Positions 250-10,909 of a stretch of DNA of 41,052 nt are shown here, piece by piece (the first letter of the stretch is position 1; the number at the start of each line of letters is the position of its first letter). This stretch comes from Erysipelotrichaceae bacterium (GTDB lineage Bacteria > Bacillota_I > Bacilli_A > Erysipelotrichales > Coprobacillaceae). Where the stretch lies: NCBI GenBank assembly GCA_021201315.1, contig JAJQFG010000044.1, forward strand, positions 1-41,052. The letters are read 5' to 3'. Position numbers and translations under genes: made by a program. Below the pieces are notes generated by a model. That model saw only the letters and a program-made list of their open reading frames with translations. It did not search any database and was not told where the DNA came from.

Positions 250-1033
250 CTACTTTGACAAGGTCTTATCATTAAAGAACATTTCAGGATTATGATTGGC
301 TATATAATTTGTATTCATAAAACGTTTGATATATCTAAAATAACCATCAACTCCAAATTCCTTATCCCAAAGCTGAATACTTTCTAATATTCTGTTAAGA
401 CATAAGAATACATTTTTAAAGATATAATCATAATTACCATGATCATTAATATTAACATATGGTTGGATTATTTTAGCTACTTCTTCGTTTTTATAAGGAT
501 TCAAAATATATTCTAAGCCATCAGCCATATATAATAAATCTTCAGTTGCGTAATCACTATAATCAGAAGTTGTTTGGTCTTTTACATCTAGTAAACGATT
601 GATAACTATTTGAATAATTTTCATAGCTTCTCTGCTAGATAATTGATATTGTTCATGAAGTATAATCAAACGACTTTCAATAGCATATAATTCTGGTTCA
701 AGTGAACGCATATTATCCTTAAGATTTCCATAATGTTTTGTGATATAACGACTGTTCTTTCTAGCATCATTCACATCAAAACTATATTCACCCTCATGAT
801 TTGTGAGCGGTACTTCTAACATAAAATTATGCCAAGATGTTTCATTATAATTATCTAAATGTTCACGAAAATAGATTTCATAAAAATAAGCAATTGCTTG
901 AATAGTACGTTCTTCATCTAGTCCTAATTCTAATAATCTTTGATATGTTTGATGCGTAGTTACATTAACATCATCTTTTAATTGATTTTCTATTCTTTTT
1001 ATAAAAGCTTCTCTTGTATTTTTTTCTTGCCAT
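250..1033 (-). pseudogene. Protein of unknown function, frameshifted in an A7 tract near its start
   Basis: I do not recognise the family. The longest ATG frame (190 aa from 822) stays open upstream to about 1032 but has no start codon there. The natural start is the ATG at 1033: AGGAGG lies 1041-1046, inside the last codons of the upstream GTPase gene, whose TAA ends at 1037. That ATG is in a different frame. The two frames join if the run of seven A residues (1019-1025, T on plus) is read as six, giving about 260 aa beginning MARKNTREAFIKRIEN. The product looks soluble and helical, without signal peptide or membrane segment. It is evidently co-transcribed with, and perhaps translationally coupled to, the GTPase gene. 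The A7 could be a sequencing error, a phase-variable tract or a slippage site. Confidence 0.7.
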
Positions 1034-1036
1034 ATA

Positions 1037-3580
1037 TTATTCCTCCTTTTTCCATTTTTTCATATCTTCTTCCAATACAAAATCATGAGCTTTAGGCTGT
1101 TTATTCATAAATTCCATATGATTATCGTTAATCATTTTAACTTCTAACTCCAATTCCCTAGTTGATTTACGTAAAGCACCATGACCTAAAACAATGACTT
1201 GTTCTGCATTATCTGATGTTGCCACCACAATCCTATAGTCTTTAGCTAACTGATGTGTTGCTCTCTCTATATAAGCATCTGCAGTTTGTGCCTCTTTGGT
1301 ATATACAATATATAAGTTGTGATATTGTTGCATACTACCTGGATTATCTTTAACTTTATAGGCATCAAAAACTATAATCATCATACATTGTTTATAACCC
1401 TGATAATTGCTTAATATATCAATAAGCTTATCTCTAGCAGCCCCTAAATCTACTTGTGCTAATTTTGCTAACTCTTCCCAGCCAAAAATAATATTATAAC
1501 CATCAATTAACATACATTCAGGTTTTAATTCTTGTGTTTTCATAGCTGTTTCTTCTTTTTTTCGATAATAATCACTAGCTAAGGTATGTTTAATAGGTCC
1601 ATATGTTTTTTCAAAAATAGCATCTAATGCTTCATCACTATCATCAAAATGATAAGTTTCTAATGATTTATTTTGATTCGTTTTTAATACTTGGTAAGGT
1701 ATATGCATATGATCTTTTACTTCATTATAAGGTACATAATAGCCAGCTCCATGTTTACAGAATATTGATCCTGTAGGATGATTAACATCTTTTTCACTAT
1801 CATAACCTATTGAAGTAATGACTTCATCAGCATTGATACATGGTTGATATCCTGACATATGACATTGTAATTTGCCTTTACCTTTGGTATAGGATATGAC
1901 CGTTTGCTGATAATTTTGCATTTGTGATATTGGAGCTTCGCCTTCTATTATATTTAATCCATTATTAATGGATGATACTTGAGCAGTTGCATGCATCATT
2001 TCTAAATCATATAGCGCTCTAGAAATATAATTATCTTCTAATTCTAATTGATAATGATAATAAGGTTCTAATAAAATGGATTTGCCTATTTTTAATCCTT
2101 GACGTATTGCTCGATAAGTTGCTTCTCTAAAGTCTCCACCTTCGGTATGTTTTGGATGATATTTACCAATTAATAATGATATTTTGATATCTGTTATAGG
2201 TGAACCAGTCAATACACCTATGTGTTCTATTTCTTGTATATGTGAAAGAATCAATCTTTGAAAATGTCTTGGTAAGTCGTCTTCTTTACATTTGGATTCC
2301 ACTTGGATACCACTTCCTGATGGTAATGGTTCTAGTAGTATATGTACTTCAGCGTAATGTCTTAATGGTTCAAAATGTCCAACACCTTCAATAGGTTCAG
2401 TAATTGTTTCTTTATATAGGATACGACCTTGATCAAAAGATATATCTTCATGAAACCTTTCTTTGACCATTGTTTTAAGTATTTCTGTTTGAACTTCACC
2501 CATGAGTTGAACATAAATATCACCATTATCTATGGATAAATGAAGTTGTGGATCTTCTTTAGCTAATAATGACAAGTTTTGATACATTTTATGAGTATCA
2601 GTTTTTTCGTTTAAAACAATACGATATGTCATATAAGGTGATAAAATAGGTTGTATAGTATTTTGTGATATTCCTATGCTTTGTCCTGCTTCTAAGGATG
2701 TAGGTCCTTTTAAAACAACTACATTGCCTGCTTTAGCCTCATTAACCAATTGATATTTTAAGCCTGAATATACTCTTATTTCATCAATTTTCTCATCATT
2801 AATGAGTTCTTTAGTTTTAATACTTCCACCTGTTACTTTTATATGTATCAATCTTACATTACCTTCATGAGTTATTTTAAAGATTTGTGCAGAGAATGTA
2901 TCATGATATTGAGGTTGTAATGTATAATTATTTAACCCATCTAATAATTCTTCAACACCATCGTTTTTTAATGCTGATCCAAAATAGATGGGAAAGATAC
3001 GTCTATCGTTAATAAGTTTTGCAATACTTTGATTGTCTATTATACCTTGATTTAAATAATCATCTAATAAACGATCATCACACAAAGCTATATTTTCATA
3101 TGTATCATCATCATTAAAAATAATACATTGATCTCCTATTTTATGAATTACATCTTCAAATAATTCAGCTTTACTTAAATGTGTCAAATCCATCTTATTC
3201 ACAAATATAAAAACTGGTACATGATAATGTTCTAACAACTGGAAAATAGTTTCACTATGTGATTGGATTCCATCCAATCCACTAATAACCACAATTGCAT
3301 AATCTAATATCTGCAAAGTTCTTTCCATTTCACTAGAAAAATCAACATGACCTGGTGTATCTACTAAAATAAATTCCGTATCTTTATATGTAAAATTAGC
3401 TTGTTTAGAAAATATCGTAATACCACGATTTCTTTCTTGTTTATCATAATCTAAAAAAGCATCTTGATGATCCACTCTACCCAACCGTCTAATTTGACCT
3501 GTTAAATAAAGTAAACTTTCTGATAAAGTTGTTTTACCTGCATCAACATGAGCAAGTATACCAATAACTATCTTCTTCAT
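1037..3580 (-). CDS. TetM-like ribosomal GTPase fused to a C-terminal Rae1/YacP-type NYN nuclease domain
   Basis: 847 aa. Residues 1 to about 640 are an EF-G/TetM-type translational GTPase: AHVDAGKTT (G1, 10-18), RGIT switch region, DTPGHVDF (G3), NKMD (G4) and GSA (G5), then domains II-V. Classical TetM is about 640 aa. The extra C-terminus (about 690-830) matches YacP/Rae1: IDGYN, VFDAY, KEAQTADAYIE, ATSD and GALRKSTREL, with acidic residues D693, D739, D768 and D790. B. subtilis Rae1 is known to cut mRNA in the ribosomal A site, and TetM-type GTPases also bind there, so a ribosome-targeted nuclease is a coherent inference. Tetracycline resistance cannot be inferred, because this looks like a chromosomal housekeeping relative. 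The start was moved from TTG 3628 to ATG 3580: TTG 3628 lies in the -35 box, and AGAAGG precedes 3580. Confidence 0.88.
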   Translation of the reverse strand: MKKIVIGILAHVDAGKTTLSESLLYLTGQIRRLGRVDHQDAFLDYDKQERNRGITIFSKQANFTYKDTEFILVDTPGHVDFSSEMERTLQILDYAIVVISGLDGIQSHSETIFQLLEHYHVPVFIFVNKMDLTHLSKAELFEDVIHKIGDQCIIFNDDDTYENIALCDDRLLDDYLNQGIIDNQSIAKLINDRRIFPIYFGSALKNDGVEELLDGLNNYTLQPQYHDTFSAQIFKITHEGNVRLIHIKVTGGSIKTKELINDEKIDEIRVYSGLKYQLVNEAKAGNVVVLKGPTSLEAGQSIGISQNTIQPILSPYMTYRIVLNEKTDTHKMYQNLSLLAKEDPQLHLSIDNGDIYVQLMGEVQTEILKTMVKERFHEDISFDQGRILYKETITEPIEGVGHFEPLRHYAEVHILLEPLPSGSGIQVESKCKEDDLPRHFQRLILSHIQEIEHIGVLTGSPITDIKISLLIGKYHPKHTEGGDFREATYRAIRQGLKIGKSILLEPYYHYQLELEDNYISRALYDLEMMHATAQVSSINNGLNIIEGEAPISQMQNYQQTVISYTKGKGKLQCHMSGYQPCINADEVITSIGYDSEKDVNHPTGSIFCKHGAGYYVPYNEVKDHMHIPYQVLKTNQNKSLETYHFDDSDEALDAIFEKTYGPIKHTLASDYYRKKEETAMKTQELKPECMLIDGYNIIFGWEELAKLAQVDLGAARDKLIDILSNYQGYKQCMMIIVFDAYKVKDNPGSMQQYHNLYIVYTKEAQTADAYIERATHQLAKDYRIVVATSDNAEQVIVLGHGALRKSTRELELEVKMINDNHMEFMNKQPKAHDFVLEEDMKKWKKEE

Positions 3581-4681: not shown

Positions 4682-5849
4682 GATTTTCTTTAATTCCTTT
4701 TTCAATAGCTTCTAAAGCTTGTTTTAAGGTACTGCGAGGACAAGCTACATTAAATCTTTCAAAACCTTCGCCACCAGTTCCAAAAATATAACCTTCATCC
4801 AACCATAATTTAGCCTTATGAAGCATAAAATCTTCTAATTCTTTTGGTTTTAAATTTAATGCTCTAAAATCAACCCAAATCAAATATAAACCTTCAGGTT
4901 TAATCACTTTAATTTCAGGTAATCTTGTTTCAAAGAAATTAATCATATAATCAATATTACCTTGCAAATATTCTAATAACTCATCAACCCACTTATCACC
5001 ATAAGTATAAGCAGCTTGACATGCATCCATACCAAAGATATTTGGATCTGTTACCCCAGAAGCCTGTTTTTCTGCTTTATATAGTTTTCTTAATGTCTCA
5101 TTAGGAATAATAATATTAGATGTTTGAAGTGCTGCTAAGTTAAATGTTTTAGAAGGTGCACTACATATAATCGTAAAGTCTTTATAACTTTCATCAACCT
5201 CAATAAATGGTACATGTATATGTCCTTCATATACAAAATCCATATGAATTTCATCACTTACTACAATAACATGATGTTTTTTACATATATCACCTATTTG
5301 TTTTAATTCTTCTTTTGTCCATACTTTACCAATTGGATTATGTGGATTACAAAGAATAAACATTTTGACGTCATTATCAATAATCTTTTGTTCAAATAAG
5401 TTAAAATCACATTCATAATGATCATCTTTTAATACTAATGGACATTCGATAACATTTCTATTTCTACCTTTAATAGAAAAATCAAATGGATAATATACTG
5501 GTTTCATAATTAAGATATTATCATTCTCTTTTGTATAAGTACTGACTGCTAATCTTAAAGCTGTCACAACACCTGTTGTAGTAACAATCCAATCCTTTTC
5601 AATGTGGAATTGATGACGTCTATCCATCCAATCAATTACAGCTTGTAAATAATCATCAGTAACACCTGCATAACCAAAAATACCATGTTGTGCTCTTTTA
5701 ACTAGTGCATCTTTAACTTCTGGAAGTGTTTCAAAGTCCATGTCAGCGACCCACATTGGTAATACTTCTGGATCATTTTGACAATGATCACCATCCCATT
5801 TAACACTATTTGTGTTTCTTCTTTCAATTACTTTATCAAAATCATACAT
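4671..5849 (-). CDS. PLP-dependent C-S lyase / aminotransferase of the PatB-MalY type
   Basis: 392 aa, fold-type I PLP enzyme. The opening (YDFDKVIERRNTNSVKWD, then LPMWVADMDF) is diagnostic of the PatB/MalY branch, whose members cleave the C-S bond of cystathionine or cysteine conjugates. Visible landmarks are CNPHNPIGKVW (168 onward), SDEIHMDF (D199) contacting the PLP ring, and SAPSKTFNLA with Schiff-base lysine K234. The length is normal for the family. It is the last gene of a four-gene minus-strand operon, and its start overlaps the end of the SpoU methyltransferase by 8 bases. Exact substrate (cystathionine, cysteine or a transaminase reaction) cannot be read from sequence. Confidence 0.9.
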   Translation of the reverse strand: MYDFDKVIERRNTNSVKWDGDHCQNDPEVLPMWVADMDFETLPEVKDALVKRAQHGIFGYAGVTDDYLQAVIDWMDRRHQFHIEKDWIVTTTGVVTALRLAVSTYTKENDNILIMKPVYYPFDFSIKGRNRNVIECPLVLKDDHYECDFNLFEQKIIDNDVKMFILCNPHNPIGKVWTKEELKQIGDICKKHHVIVVSDEIHMDFVYEGHIHVPFIEVDESYKDFTIICSAPSKTFNLAALQTSNIIIPNETLRKLYKAEKQASGVTDPNIFGMDACQAAYTYGDKWVDELLEYLQGNIDYMINFFETRLPEIKVIKPEGLYLIWVDFRALNLKPKELEDFMLHKAKLWLDEGYIFGTGGEGFERFNVACPRSTLKQALEAIEKGIKENQLL

Positions 5850-6582
5850 TTCCCCTCAATACCTTCCTTTCTTTAAACTCCTGTTTAGAAAAATGAAACA
5901 ACGTTAAACCTAACGCCATTGATAAATTCAATGAATCTATTTGTTCACTATGGGGTATAAATACACTCTTCCCATAGTTTAAATAACTATCATCCAAACC
6001 ACTGCTTTCATTACCAAATATTAATGTATGTATATTTTCTGTTTGTACATGATGAATATTGGTAGCTCCTTTTAACATAAGTGGATATATTTCGTGATGC
6101 TTATATAACTGATAATAACTTTCAAAATTATCAAAATATTGAACATTCAAATGAAATAGTGCTCCCATAGAAGCTCTTATCACCTTAGGATCATAAATAT
6201 CTACAGCTGGTCTAATAATTGCTAAGTTAACATAATCAAAGCCAAGCATTGTACGCATAATTGTCCCCATATTACCCATATCCATAGGATTAACCAATAC
6301 TACATGATTACCTTCATTCAAACTACTTTCATAAGTATCAAATACACCTATCGCAAAACAATTATTTTTAGGTGATAACTTGTCTATTGTCTTGTCATGA
6401 ATATCTATAGGAATATGATGTATTTTACATAATTGTTGTATTTTAGGATAACCTCTATTTTTTTCAATACTTGAATGTACAACAATTCTTTTTACATAAT
6501 TGGGTTTATTTTCCAACGATTCTATTGTTGGAAAAACACCTAATGTATAAGATTGACTGTCTCCTTTTTTATAAATCTTCAT
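5842..6582 (-). CDS. SpoU/TrmH-family RNA 2'-O-methyltransferase
   Basis: 246 aa SPOUT-fold enzyme using S-adenosylmethionine to methylate a ribose 2'-OH in tRNA or rRNA. The three SpoU motifs are present: NPMDMGNMGTIMRTMLGF (motif 1, with N and R), LIFGNESSGL (motif 2) and IPHSEQIDSLNLSMALGL (motif 3, knot region). An N-terminal extension of about 90 aa may aid RNA binding. The ATG at 6582 is preferred over 6588 because GGAG lies 7 bases before it but only 1 base before the upstream ATG. It overlaps the end of the Sel1-repeat gene by 14 bases, so translation is probably coupled. The target nucleotide is unknown. Confidence 0.9.
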   Translation of the reverse strand: MKIYKKGDSQSYTLGVFPTIESLENKPNYVKRIVVHSSIEKNRGYPKIQQLCKIHHIPIDIHDKTIDKLSPKNNCFAIGVFDTYESSLNEGNHVVLVNPMDMGNMGTIMRTMLGFDYVNLAIIRPAVDIYDPKVIRASMGALFHLNVQYFDNFESYYQLYKHHEIYPLMLKGATNIHHVQTENIHTLIFGNESSGLDDSYLNYGKSVFIPHSEQIDSLNLSMALGLTLFHFSKQEFKERKVLRGNV

Positions 6583-7702
6583 GGCCATACTCCTTTAATA
6601 TTCTTTGATTTTCACTTTCTATTTCATGTGCTTTTTTCAAATAATATTCAACCTTTTGTATGTCAGCATCAACATATTGTCCAAAACGATAAAACTGAGC
6701 TAAAGTAATACAAGCCACTTGACAATGCATATCCACAGCTTGATTCAAATAATGAATACCCACGTTCTTTTCTTTTTCTAATAAACCATGTTCCAATTGT
6801 AGTAATGCTAATTCATAAGTACAATCACCATCAAATAAATAATAACCATATTCAAAATACTTTTGAGCAAGATTTTCATCTTTATCAACACCCAAACCTG
6901 TTTTTAAATAAGTAGCTGTTTTATATAAACAATGACTATCAAACATCCTGGCTCCTTGATAAAAAGCTTTAAATGCTCCAGAATAATCTCTATAATATTC
7001 TAATATATAACCACTATAAAAATACGCTTCAGCTTCATGACTCTTTTGAAGATATGCTAATGCCTTATCAAAATCTTTCTTATCTTTAGATCCAAACAAA
7101 TACATCATACCTAATCTCAAACATGTTTTATCATCATCATTAGACTCATAATAAAGTATCGCTTTTTCAACATTTTTTTCAATTCCCCAACCATGTTCAT
7201 ACATTTGCCCTAAATAATAAGCACAATCATGATAACCCAAACTATAAAGATACGAATAAATCTTAAACGCTTCTTCATAATCCTGAGCAACACCAAATCC
7301 ATCATAATAACATTTAGCTACCATCGCAAGATGACCTGTATCACCATGTTCATAACTTTGTTGAGCTAACTCATCCATATTAGCTACTGTAAAATAATAA
7401 CCAATCTCATTCAACAACCTCACAAAAACAGCTACCATAAAGACAGCTTCTTTTTCACTTAATTGAAATTGCTTAATCAAATATTCTACATAACCCTTTA
7501 TATCAATATTTTGATCAAAAATCATCACATCAAAGATGCCAGCCTTCATACCTAAAACAACCAAATAACACTCATCCATCAATGATGTTGCTTCATCATT
7601 TAAAGCTTCCTCAAAACGATCATAATCATAGCGAATACCATCACCATATTCATCCATGACATTCATAACCGCTTTCACTATATCAATATCTAAAATAGCC
7701 AT
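6569..7702 (-). CDS. Sel1-like tetratricopeptide repeat protein
   Basis: 377 aa. From about residue 115 onward it has Sel1-type repeats, e.g. HLAMVAKCYYDGFGVAQDYEEAF and CAYYLGQMYEHGWGIEKNVEKAI, with the A-x2-LG-x2-Y-x2-G-x-G pattern. These form helical hairpins that scaffold protein interactions. The first 110 residues are helical and acidic and belong to no family I recognise. No signal peptide or membrane segment, so probably cytosolic. The start codon shares its A with the stop of the upstream gene (TAATG), so coupled translation is expected. Whether it acts with the neighbouring methyltransferase is unknown. Confidence 0.85.
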   Translation of the reverse strand: MAILDIDIVKAVMNVMDEYGDGIRYDYDRFEEALNDEATSLMDECYLVVLGMKAGIFDVMIFDQNIDIKGYVEYLIKQFQLSEKEAVFMVAVFVRLLNEIGYYFTVANMDELAQQSYEHGDTGHLAMVAKCYYDGFGVAQDYEEAFKIYSYLYSLGYHDCAYYLGQMYEHGWGIEKNVEKAILYYESNDDDKTCLRLGMMYLFGSKDKKDFDKALAYLQKSHEAEAYFYSGYILEYYRDYSGAFKAFYQGARMFDSHCLYKTATYLKTGLGVDKDENLAQKYFEYGYYLFDGDCTYELALLQLEHGLLEKEKNVGIHYLNQAVDMHCQVACITLAQFYRFGQYVDADIQKVEYYLKKAHEIESENQRILKEYGHEDL

Positions 7703-7974
7703 TATAATCCTTTATTAATCGCTTGAACATCTTCTAATTGTTTTTGCGCATTATTTTTTAAAGCTATAAAATGATTTTTGTCAAAATTCGCACCCTGATC
7801 AATTAGTTCAATAAGTTCATTATATTTTTCTACAACTAAAGCTAAGATAGATTCTTTAATTACAAAATCCATTTCATTATTGGCTTGTTGTAATAATTGG
7901 TTCACTGATTTATATTGTTCTTTAAAGATAGCATCATAATCAACTTTTTGTTTCTTTTTAGAAAATAATCCCAT
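7702..7974 (-). CDS. Small helical protein of unknown function, first gene of the operon
   Basis: 90 aa from ATG 7974 (MGLFSKKKQKVDYDAIFKEQ). MGLFSKKK-type basic starts often precede small helical, membrane-peripheral proteins, but nothing more specific is recognisable. The rest is predicted helical and rich in Q, N, E and L. The open frame extends to an ATG at 8028, but the likely promoter -10 (7997-8002) falls inside that extension. ATG 7974 follows GAGGAG at a good distance, so the short form was chosen. Confidence 0.65.
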   Translation of the reverse strand: MGLFSKKKQKVDYDAIFKEQYKSVNQLLQQANNEMDFVIKESILALVVEKYNELIELIDQGANFDKNHFIALKNNAQKQLEDVQAINKGL

Positions 7975-7996
7975 ATACCTCAACTCCTCGCATACC

Positions 7997-8005
7997 ATTA
8001 TAACA
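7997..8005 (-). promoter_or_regulatory. Extended -10 promoter for the 7974-4671 operon
   Basis: On the minus strand TGTTATAAT is a consensus extended -10 (hexamer 7997-8002). No good -35 is visible. Transcription would start near 7990, just upstream of the ATG at 7974. Confidence 0.5.
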
Positions 8006-8056
8006 AGTAATTTCCTAAAAATAAACATTTAAAATAATGATTTCAACTTCCTTTTT

Positions 8057-8091
8057 CTTATGGATGAATTATGATATAATTCATCCATAAG
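8057..8091 (+). promoter_or_regulatory. Promoter embedded in a perfect 35-bp palindrome (candidate operator)
   Basis: Two perfect 16-bp arms, CTTATGGATGAATTAT and ATAATTCATCCATAAG, are separated by GAT. The right half contains the extended -10 TGATATAAT (hexamer 8075-8080), and the palindrome ends in the ribosome site AAGGAG. There is no clear -35. Transcription would begin near 8087, so the palindrome acts mainly as DNA, probably a repressor or activator operator for the 8101-12594 operon. The regulator is not evident in the window. Confidence 0.65.
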
Positions 8092-8100
8092 GAGAACGTT

Positions 8101-8733
8101 ATGGATAAAAAACAACTGTATGAATTATTTGGGATTGAAACAACTAATGAATTAATAAAAAACTTGCAAAATGAAAATAGTCATTATAATAAACATAAAA
8201 AATACGAAGGAGAAACCTCCATTGAACAATATTGTTTAGATTTAAAAAAACGTGGTATTGATTTTAGTGAAGAAGCTGTTTTATCATTATATGAAATGGT
8301 ACAGGATGTGCAGACGCTTTGGGATTATTATTATCAAAAAGATGAAAGGAAATGGATAAATATTGATGATCAACCTAATCTTCCTTTTAATTCTGATTCA
8401 TTATTTACTTATATTAAGAGGATTGTTGAAAAACATTACAATATTTATGATTCCATGGATATTTATTATATTAAACAAAATTTTATTAATTTAGAGAATT
8501 ATCCAAAAAAAGAATTCCAACAAACATTTATGCATCATCTAATCATACTTACAAATTATGCCAATATCCATGATATTCATAACTTATATGAACTTATCCC
8601 AGACTTTGATATGAACGAATTAATAAAGCAATATATTAAACGATGCCATAATCGTAACTATCAATTTAAAGAAATGATGAAAAGATTTTATGCAACATTC
8701 AATGATGCTGATACATCAATATATAAAATATAA
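8101..8733 (+). CDS. Protein of unknown function, first gene of the GH13-GNAT operon
   Basis: 210 aa, unrecognised. It is soluble, without signal peptide or membrane segments, rich in N, Y, D and K, and probably mostly helical. The ATG at 8101 follows AAGGAG (8089-8094) and lies just behind the palindromic promoter, so the start is secure. The next gene begins 10 bases after its stop, so the two are co-transcribed. It could be a regulator or partner of the downstream glucosidase, but no DNA-binding motif is recognisable. Confidence 0.7.
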   Translation: MDKKQLYELFGIETTNELIKNLQNENSHYNKHKKYEGETSIEQYCLDLKKRGIDFSEEAVLSLYEMVQDVQTLWDYYYQKDERKWINIDDQPNLPFNSDSLFTYIKRIVEKHYNIYDSMDIYYIKQNFINLENYPKKEFQQTFMHHLIILTNYANIHDIHNLYELIPDFDMNELIKQYIKRCHNRNYQFKEMMKRFYATFNDADTSIYKI

Positions 8734-8743
8734 GGAGGAAACA

Positions 8744-10909
8744 ATGAACGACTGGTGGAAAAAAGAAATAGTTTATCAAATATATCCTAGAAGTTTCTAT
8801 GATAGTAATAATGATGGTATTGGTGATATTCAAGGAATTATTCAAAAGTTAGATTATTTAAGTGATTTAGGAGTAACTATGCTTTGGATATGTCCTATAT
8901 ATCAATCACCAATGGATGATAATGGTTATGATATATCTGATTATTATGATATTAATCCTGAATTTGGAACAATGGATGATGTTGATGAGCTTATTAGTGA
9001 AGCAAACAAAAGAAATATAAAGATTATTATGGATTTGGTTATTAATCATACTTCTGATGAGCATCCTTGGTTTCAAGAAGCAATAAAGGATCCTCAAAGC
9101 CCTAAACATGATTATTATATTTTTAAGCATTCCAAGGAAAGACCTAACAATTGGCGTAGTGTTTTTGGTGGATCTGTTTGGCAAAAGGTTGATGGTAGAG
9201 ATGAATATTATTTTCATTCATTTTCTAAGAAACAGCCTGATTTAAATTGGGAAAATGAAGAATTAAGAAAAGAATTATATAAAATGATTAATTGGTGGTT
9301 GGATAAGGGTATTAGTGGATTTAGAGTTGATGCAATTAATTTTATTAAAAAGGATCAAAGTTACCAAGATGGTATCGTTGATGGACATGATGGTTTAAGT
9401 GCATGTTTCCCTTATACAAGAAATCAGCCAGGCATTGAAGTATTCTTTAAGGAATTAAGAGAAGAAACATTTGATAAATATCATTGTATGACAGTTGCTG
9501 AAGCGGTTGGTGTAAAGTATTCTGATTTAGGTATATTTATTGGCGAAGATGGTTGTTTTTCTATGATGTTTGATTTTAATTATTGTAATTTTGATATTAA
9601 TGAAGATGAAGAATGGTTTAGAAGACAAAATTGGACAATCAAAGAATTTAGAGATTTGTTGTTTACAAGTCAAAAAGAAGTACAAAAGTTAGGATGGATT
9701 GCATCATTTTTAGAAAATCATGATCAACCACGCTCTATTGATAAATTTATTGATAAAAAAGATCATAATTATTATTCAAAGACATTATTAGCAGGGATGT
9801 TTTTTAATCTAAGAGGTACGCCTTTTATTTATCAAGGTGAAGAAATAGGTATGGAAAATTTTAATCGAGATAGCTTAAATGATTTTGATGATATTAGTTC
9901 ACATAGTCAGTATCAGCGTGCTATAGAAGAAGGATTTAGTCATGAAGAAGCAATGATATTTTTAAATCAAAGAAGTCGTGATAATACACGTGTACCAATG
10001 CAATGGGATGATACAAAATATGGAGGTTTCAGTAAACATAAGCCTTGGTTAAAGATGTGTGGTAATCAAGACACTATTAATGTAGAAAGTCAAATTAATG
10101 ATCCACATTCTATTTATAGTTTTTATAAAGCAATGATTCAAATACGTAAAAATGAAGAAACATTAATTTATGGTGATTTTAAGGCTATTGAAAATATCAA
10201 TGATAATATCATTGCTTATCAACGTATATATAACAATGAAATCATTACATGTTTATGTAACTTTTCTAATGAAATCATTAAAATACCTTATATATCAGGT
10301 AATGTATTACTTAATAACTATGATAAATATACGTTAAAACAATTACAACCTTATCAGTTTGTGATGATTAAAGGAATCAAAACACATGATTACTTTATGA
10401 CTAGTTATAGATTGGGGTTTTCTTTATGGAATAATAATGATATTAATTTAATGTTTTCATTATACGGACAAAAGGATGTAACACAATTTATTAGTGCTAA
10501 TGGTATTTTTACCAATGATGAAATTAAAGATAGATTAAAAAATGAAATCAATAATTATAATCAGTATCATATTCAATATTATCCATTATTTTCATTATTA
10601 GATCATAGTTTTATAGGTTGTTGTGGCTTAAGGCCTACTGATGAAAAGAATGTCTATGAAATAGGTTTTCATTTAAAAAAAGAATCTAGACATCAAGGTT
10701 TTGCAGCAGAAGCTGCAAAACAAGTTATTGATTACGCTTTTACATCACTACATGCTACAAAGATTATTGCAGGGCATCATCCAGAGAACATAGCTTCAAA
10801 AGCGCTTATATCAAACCTAGGTTTTAAATATATTCAGGATAACTATTATGAACCTACTGGATTAATGCATCCAACTTATGAAATAAGAAAGGAAAAATTT
10901 TATGCATAA
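8744..10909 (+). CDS. GH13 alpha-glucosidase fused to a C-terminal GNAT acetyltransferase
   Basis: 721 aa. Residues 1-550 are a full-length GH13 alpha-glucosidase of the oligo-1,6-glucosidase/MalL type (starts WWKKEIVYQIYPRSFYDSN), cytosolic, acting on short malto- or isomalto-oligosaccharides. GFRVDAINF gives nucleophile D196, TVAEAVG gives acid/base E253, and LENHDQPR gives D327; QPDLNWEN is the family marker. The residue after the nucleophile is alanine. Valine there marks alpha-1,6 specificity in this family, so alpha-1,4 activity is more likely. Residues 552-721 are a complete GNAT domain (MTSYRLGFSLWNNNDINLMF..., acetyl-CoA loop RHQGFAAEA). The frame is uninterrupted at the junction. 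ATG 8744 follows AAGGAGG; the longer frame to 8690 was rejected. Its stop overlaps rlmA by 8 bases. Confidence 0.9.
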   Translation: MNDWWKKEIVYQIYPRSFYDSNNDGIGDIQGIIQKLDYLSDLGVTMLWICPIYQSPMDDNGYDISDYYDINPEFGTMDDVDELISEANKRNIKIIMDLVINHTSDEHPWFQEAIKDPQSPKHDYYIFKHSKERPNNWRSVFGGSVWQKVDGRDEYYFHSFSKKQPDLNWENEELRKELYKMINWWLDKGISGFRVDAINFIKKDQSYQDGIVDGHDGLSACFPYTRNQPGIEVFFKELREETFDKYHCMTVAEAVGVKYSDLGIFIGEDGCFSMMFDFNYCNFDINEDEEWFRRQNWTIKEFRDLLFTSQKEVQKLGWIASFLENHDQPRSIDKFIDKKDHNYYSKTLLAGMFFNLRGTPFIYQGEEIGMENFNRDSLNDFDDISSHSQYQRAIEEGFSHEEAMIFLNQRSRDNTRVPMQWDDTKYGGFSKHKPWLKMCGNQDTINVESQINDPHSIYSFYKAMIQIRKNEETLIYGDFKAIENINDNIIAYQRIYNNEIITCLCNFSNEIIKIPYISGNVLLNNYDKYTLKQLQPYQFVMIKGIKTHDYFMTSYRLGFSLWNNNDINLMFSLYGQKDVTQFISANGIFTNDEIKDRLKNEINNYNQYHIQYYPLFSLLDHSFIGCCGLRPTDEKNVYEIGFHLKKESRHQGFAAEAAKQVIDYAFTSLHATKIIAGHHPENIASKALISNLGFKYIQDNYYEPTGLMHPTYEIRKEKFYA

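Follow-up and report, generated by a model that had tools for sequence, protein, structure and literature searches.

Only a few bacterial enzymes are known to cut mRNA within a ribosome during translation, Rae1 being one of them. The Rae1 of Bacillus subtilis is, to our knowledge, the sole characterised relative of the NYN domain considered here; the Rae1 link is said to date from 2017. In B. subtilis, Rae1 cleaves mRNA at the A site of the ribosome (PMC12320835), its entry into stalled ribosomes has been proposed (PMC10100781), and rae1 is co-transcribed with yacO/rlmB (PMC6613710). The combination of such a nuclease with a translational GTPase is also on record, as one passage of Atkinson 2015 (PMC4342817) notes a Tet-NYN(YacP) architecture for ten Clostridiales. 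The preliminary description of the DNA analysed here had suspected that the fusion might already be known and took its function to be uncharacterised; the first is borne out by the 2015 paper, and our literature search found only that mention of the fusion, while a 2018 survey of Rae1 distribution may mention fusions too. The protein described below has in common with the published group a GTPase of the Tet/EF-G type and, behind it, a YacP-like NYN domain, and it is assigned to that group by architecture rather than by comparison with the original ten sequences; the published members are Clostridiales, whereas ours comes from an Erysipelotrichaceae-type genome. A match in Monoglobus (49% identity over 98%) bears the RefSeq name 'translation factor GTPase family protein'. 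In the accessible part of Atkinson 2015 we found neither a replacement of rae1 nor the tip-loop signature described below. Thus the architecture is already known, and what is new here is the evidence that the fusion replaced stand-alone rae1.

The gene lies on the minus strand of the window, by which we mean the whole analysed stretch of 41,052 nucleotides, and forms one uninterrupted frame of 847 codons at 1037-3580, from an ATG at 3580 to a TAA at 1037-1039; the mechanical ORF extends upstream of this ATG to a TTG. In the 847-residue product, the G domain (residues 4-219, window 2924-3571) carries the AHVDAGKTT, DTPGHVDF and NKMD motifs and matches Pfam GTP_EFTU with an E-value of 1e-50, and it is followed in order by EF-G domain III (residues 315-381, 2438-2638, EFG_III), domain IV (residues 385-497, 2090-2428, EFG_IV) and domain V (residues 503-581, 1838-2074, EFG_C), so that the protein belongs to the EF2-type (EF-G/Tet) group with its GTPase motifs intact, the whole EF-G/Tet-type GTPase spanning residues 1-581. 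Then come a C-terminal module of the GTPase (residues 582-628, 1697-1837) with the motif GSIFCxHGAGxxVxxxxVxxxMH, a linker (residues 629-689, 1514-1696), and the NYN_YacP/Rae1 nuclease domain (residues 690-842, 1055-1513), which scores 163 bits (E 6e-48) against the PF05991 cut-off of 24.6. All these Pfam matches lie well outside what chance would give. A model of the whole fusion built from 36 relatives has a mean pLDDT of 80, with values below 50 at residues 634-648 and 661-684, and the linker is accordingly predicted to be disordered. The GTPase-Rae1 fusion that had been read from the letters alone is therefore real as a single frame with both sets of Pfam domains; the YacP/Rae1 motifs named earlier were all found, the GTPase ahead of the nuclease is complete, and no stop or frameshift separates the domains, the relatives showing the same architecture.

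In the nuclease half, the best solved relatives are the B. subtilis Rae1 structures 5MQ8 and 5MQ9. When modelled alone, the NYN domain matches 5MQ9 at Z 20.3 with an rmsd of 1.8 over 135 residues, and the next-best structure after Rae1 reaches only Z 9.2. Asp693, Asp739, Asp768 and Asp790 align with Asp7, Asp53, Asp81 and Asp104 of Rae1, and all of the 123 fused and 27 stand-alone homologues have aspartate at these four positions, so the catalytic centre looks intact. The domain thus shares with B. subtilis Rae1/YacP the NYN fold, about 40% identity and the four aspartates with their surrounding motifs; B. subtilis Rae1, however, is a stand-alone protein of about 170 residues, encoded in an rlmB-sigH operon and free of any GTPase.

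The first part of the protein has TetO/TetM and EF-G as its best solved relatives, and a tree with EF-G as the outgroup places TetM and TetO closest to it among named proteins. Its catalytic centre also looks intact as judged from the alignment, where His78 of DTPGH is invariant in 36 aligned fusions. The earlier label 'TetM-type' holds in part: the domain order, the overall fold (Z 32-33 with TetM), the GTPase motifs and the nearest named family agree, but the identity to Tet(M)/Tet(O) is only 28-30%, and the fusion has an extra C-terminal module besides the nuclease. More specifically, the tip loops of domain IV differ. Loop I (residues 401-412, 2345-2380) reads GHFEPLRHYAEV, including EPLRHYAEV, where TetM has PPNPFWAS; loop III (residues 475-484, 2129-2158) reads HPKHTEGGDF, with the core KHTEGGDF, where TetM has YYSPVSTPADF, with the core SPVSTPADF. 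The tip loops of EF-G differ from those of the fusion as well. The two loops are found again throughout the fusions, diverging somewhat in distant members, and also in an unfused sister GTPase; loop I is specific to this GTPase lineage whether fused or not. On the curated NCBIfam model of tetracycline protection (tet_protect, NF012153) the fusion reaches 409 bits, where the cut-off is 775. We therefore rejected an identity as tetracycline-resistance protein; the label does not extend to tetracycline protection, for which the sequence offers no support.

The distribution of the fusion was followed in 98 relatives and in 391 Clostridia genomes, a domain-architecture search which the preliminary description had also envisaged and which recovered the fusion in both sets. 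In the genome of the window, which is 100% complete, this fusion is the sole NYN_YacP; a separate yacP, whose possible absence had been raised earlier, was not found there, and its usual slot is empty. NYN_YacP is present in 69 of the 98 relatives, always as one copy, and the frame that holds it nearly always has 800-1100 codons; among the shorter frames are some at contig edges and a locus divided between two overlapping frames. By its loop pattern the lineage GTPase was identified in 66 of the 98 relatives, each of them among these 69, and by the same pattern the relatives that lack NYN_YacP lack the GTPase too, so that in these genomes the two halves co-occur or are both missing. As for Clostridia, 249/391 genomes have NYN_YacP, and the fused architecture is seen in 74/80 named loci. 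Because the architecture recurs here and in nearly all domain-bearing relatives, the fusion is not an assembly artefact. Among 148 listed Clostridia genomes, the stand-alone form occurs in 63, the fused form in 77 and both in 1, where about 33 with both would be expected under independence, although these counts take no account of kinship and set aside nine frames of intermediate length; the mutual exclusion comes partly from shared ancestry. Apparent second copies of NYN_YacP in three Clostridia genomes lie below the family cut-off. NYN_YacP is missing altogether from about 30% of the relatives and from 36% of the sampled Clostridia, so the function is dispensable.

Several individual loci depart from the common form. 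One genome (G576) carries two full fusions (L297 and L298) on different contigs and on different branches of the tree. In another (G064), the fusion at 5842-8414 of locus L078 is split into overlapping frames of 712 and 160 residues, and a similar picture is seen at L102 and L125; for all three the alternatives are assembly error, decay and frameshifting.

The gene order cysS-mrnC-rlmB-rae1-sigH-like is found in a Lachnospiraceae genome whose rae1 is stand-alone, and among 27 distinct stand-alone loci the flanks hold rlmB in 22, a sigH-like gene in 26, and either or both in 26. No sigH-like gene was found in the flanking DNA examined of the fused loci. In 6/6 fusion genomes examined, namely that of the window (L324), two members of its family (L327, L328) and three fusion-bearing Clostridia (L325, L326, L330), the sigH-like gene comes directly after rlmB, with no rae1 and nothing else recognisable between the two, the slot neighbours being identified by reading of the sequences. 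In the sole genome having both forms (L329), rae1 sits in its slot. The fusion has thus taken the place of stand-alone rae1. The fusion gene has no conserved operon partner, the commonest neighbour family being found in 10/99 loci; no convincing match to a promoter of its own was seen just upstream, and a terminator-like site lies between the fusion gene and fba.

The unfused sister GTPase of Clostridia (about 650-670 residues, with copies of 645-729) helps to understand how the fusion arose. It has the same domain IV loops and the same C-terminal FCxxGxGF...MH module as the fusion; unlike the fusion, it has no nuclease, and it ends just after this module, exactly where the linker of the fusion begins, which places the junction at the module of residues 582-628. 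All unfused copies (22/22) form a separate clade with a support of 100, and a single clade of fused GTPases is compatible with the data (p-AU 0.67), while the root of the GTPase tree leaves it either way whether the unfused clade precedes the fusion or descends from it. In the nuclease tree, fused and stand-alone copies are separated with two changes. With about one or two changes of label required, the trees are compatible with one fusion event, and one event followed by spread would be the simplest account of these trees. The sister GTPase occurs in 14 listed Clostridia genomes with stand-alone rae1 and in at least 8 without NYN_YacP, and its presence in the latter argues for a separate task of the GTPase. 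A stand-alone NYN of 190 residues (L212 in G686, and L290) lies outside the rlmB-sigH slot and groups with the fused copies, in a genome which also has the unfused GTPase; it is possibly a product of fission.

Taken as a whole, we consider it somewhat probable that the fusion is a chromosomal housekeeping factor which replaced rae1, and in which a GTPase of the EF-G/Tet lineage recruits Rae1 to ribosomes for cleavage of mRNA in the A site. EF-G-type factors put domain IV into the A site. Domain IV and Rae1 should therefore exclude each other from this site, so the GTPase and Rae1 must act in sequence over the linker; moreover, the GTPase cannot be essential to the cleavage chemistry, because in B. 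subtilis Rae1 acts with no GTPase fused to it. We infer, in the following scheme, that the fusion binds ribosomes and cleaves in the A site, as well as the sequence of the steps and any dependence on GTP. The GTPase part in its GTP form would bind ribosomes whose A site is empty or blocked, where the specialised tip of domain IV would probe the decoding centre; after GTP hydrolysis the GTPase would withdraw, and the Rae1 domain, held on about 60 flexible linker residues, would enter the vacated A site and cut the mRNA, by which the ribosome may be freed for rescue and the message destabilised. More tentatively, and as a possibility that we hold to be less likely than not, ribosome-dependent mRNA cleavage may be gated by GTP in most Erysipelotrichales and many of the Clostridia sampled, with the domain IV tip sensing an unproductive A site and GTP hydrolysis swinging the tethered Rae1 in. 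If this is true, it would be a case of a translational GTPase delivering a nuclease in place of tRNA or a release factor. Two points weaken a simple picture of delivery, namely the competition for the A site and the existence of the unfused sister GTPase without NYN_YacP.

The latter point leads to the main rival, in which the fusion is a passive tether: the GTPase would have a separate task, and the fusion would only raise the local amount of Rae1 at ribosomes or fix the ratio of the two activities, with cleavage not gated by GTP. The occurrence of sister GTPases in genomes without any NYN_YacP, the sufficiency of stand-alone Rae1 in other lineages and the predicted disorder of the linker all fit such a tether. 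We nevertheless regard it as rather unlikely, since fused and unfused GTPases are separate lineages in the tree, and since the fusion has been kept across Erysipelotrichales and many Clostridia with only rare apparent splits, which exceeds what a neutral tether would lead us to expect.

A resistance factor, that is, a tetracycline-type ribosomal protection protein joined to an RNase, was suggested in Atkinson 2015 (PMC4342817), and Tet proteins are indeed the nearest named relatives both in the tree and in NCBIfam. However, the score below the curated cut-off and the two tip loops unlike those of TetM make this highly improbable, and the gene is chromosomal, in one copy and with no mobile context seen, and stands in for a housekeeping gene; the plasmid matches listed, except for a 518-kb Monoglobus replicon, are ordinary Tet proteins and elongation factors. 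Highly improbable, too, is a role in ribosome-linked RNA maturation, with the NYN domain processing rRNA or tRNA and the GTPase acting in ribosome assembly or recycling, for the sole characterised relative, B. subtilis Rae1, is an mRNA endonuclease of the A site. EF-G-like proteins can act in recycling, and stand-alone rae1 lies in an operon with rlmB and mrnC, both of which would suit such a role. Such a role had also been proposed early for YacP-like NYN domains, in work that PMC4342817 cites. A defence system was rejected as well, PADLOC giving no match.

Many gut Bacillota have the Rae1 nuclease solely in the form of the fusion, tied to a putative ribosome-binding GTPase. The fusion offers a natural and genetically simple system in which recruitment (by GTPase mutants) is separable from cutting (by Asp mutants), and our result speaks against treating such fusion genes as determinants of tetracycline resistance. 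Carriage by phages was rejected: the two 'phage' records with the fusion (L331 and L332; MT835563 and MT835514) are unverified scaffolds. L332 carries, as judged by eye, feoB/fur/rsmH/gltX/glpK-like neighbours and is probably a mislabelled bacterial contig.

Two further observations concern the window itself. The gene downstream of the fusion (250-1034, minus strand) loses its frame close to the start, where the frame opened by the ATG stops within an A-rich stretch after about 20 codons, and two loci of the same genus (L060 and L092) have an intact copy of 260 residues; no Pfam match was seen. The break is either a sequencing error or real slippage. At 8690-10909 on the plus strand, a single frame of 739 residues holds an alpha-amylase-family catalytic domain (residues 30-495) and, towards its C-terminus, a GNAT acetyltransferase (residues 574-713), which is an odd fusion.
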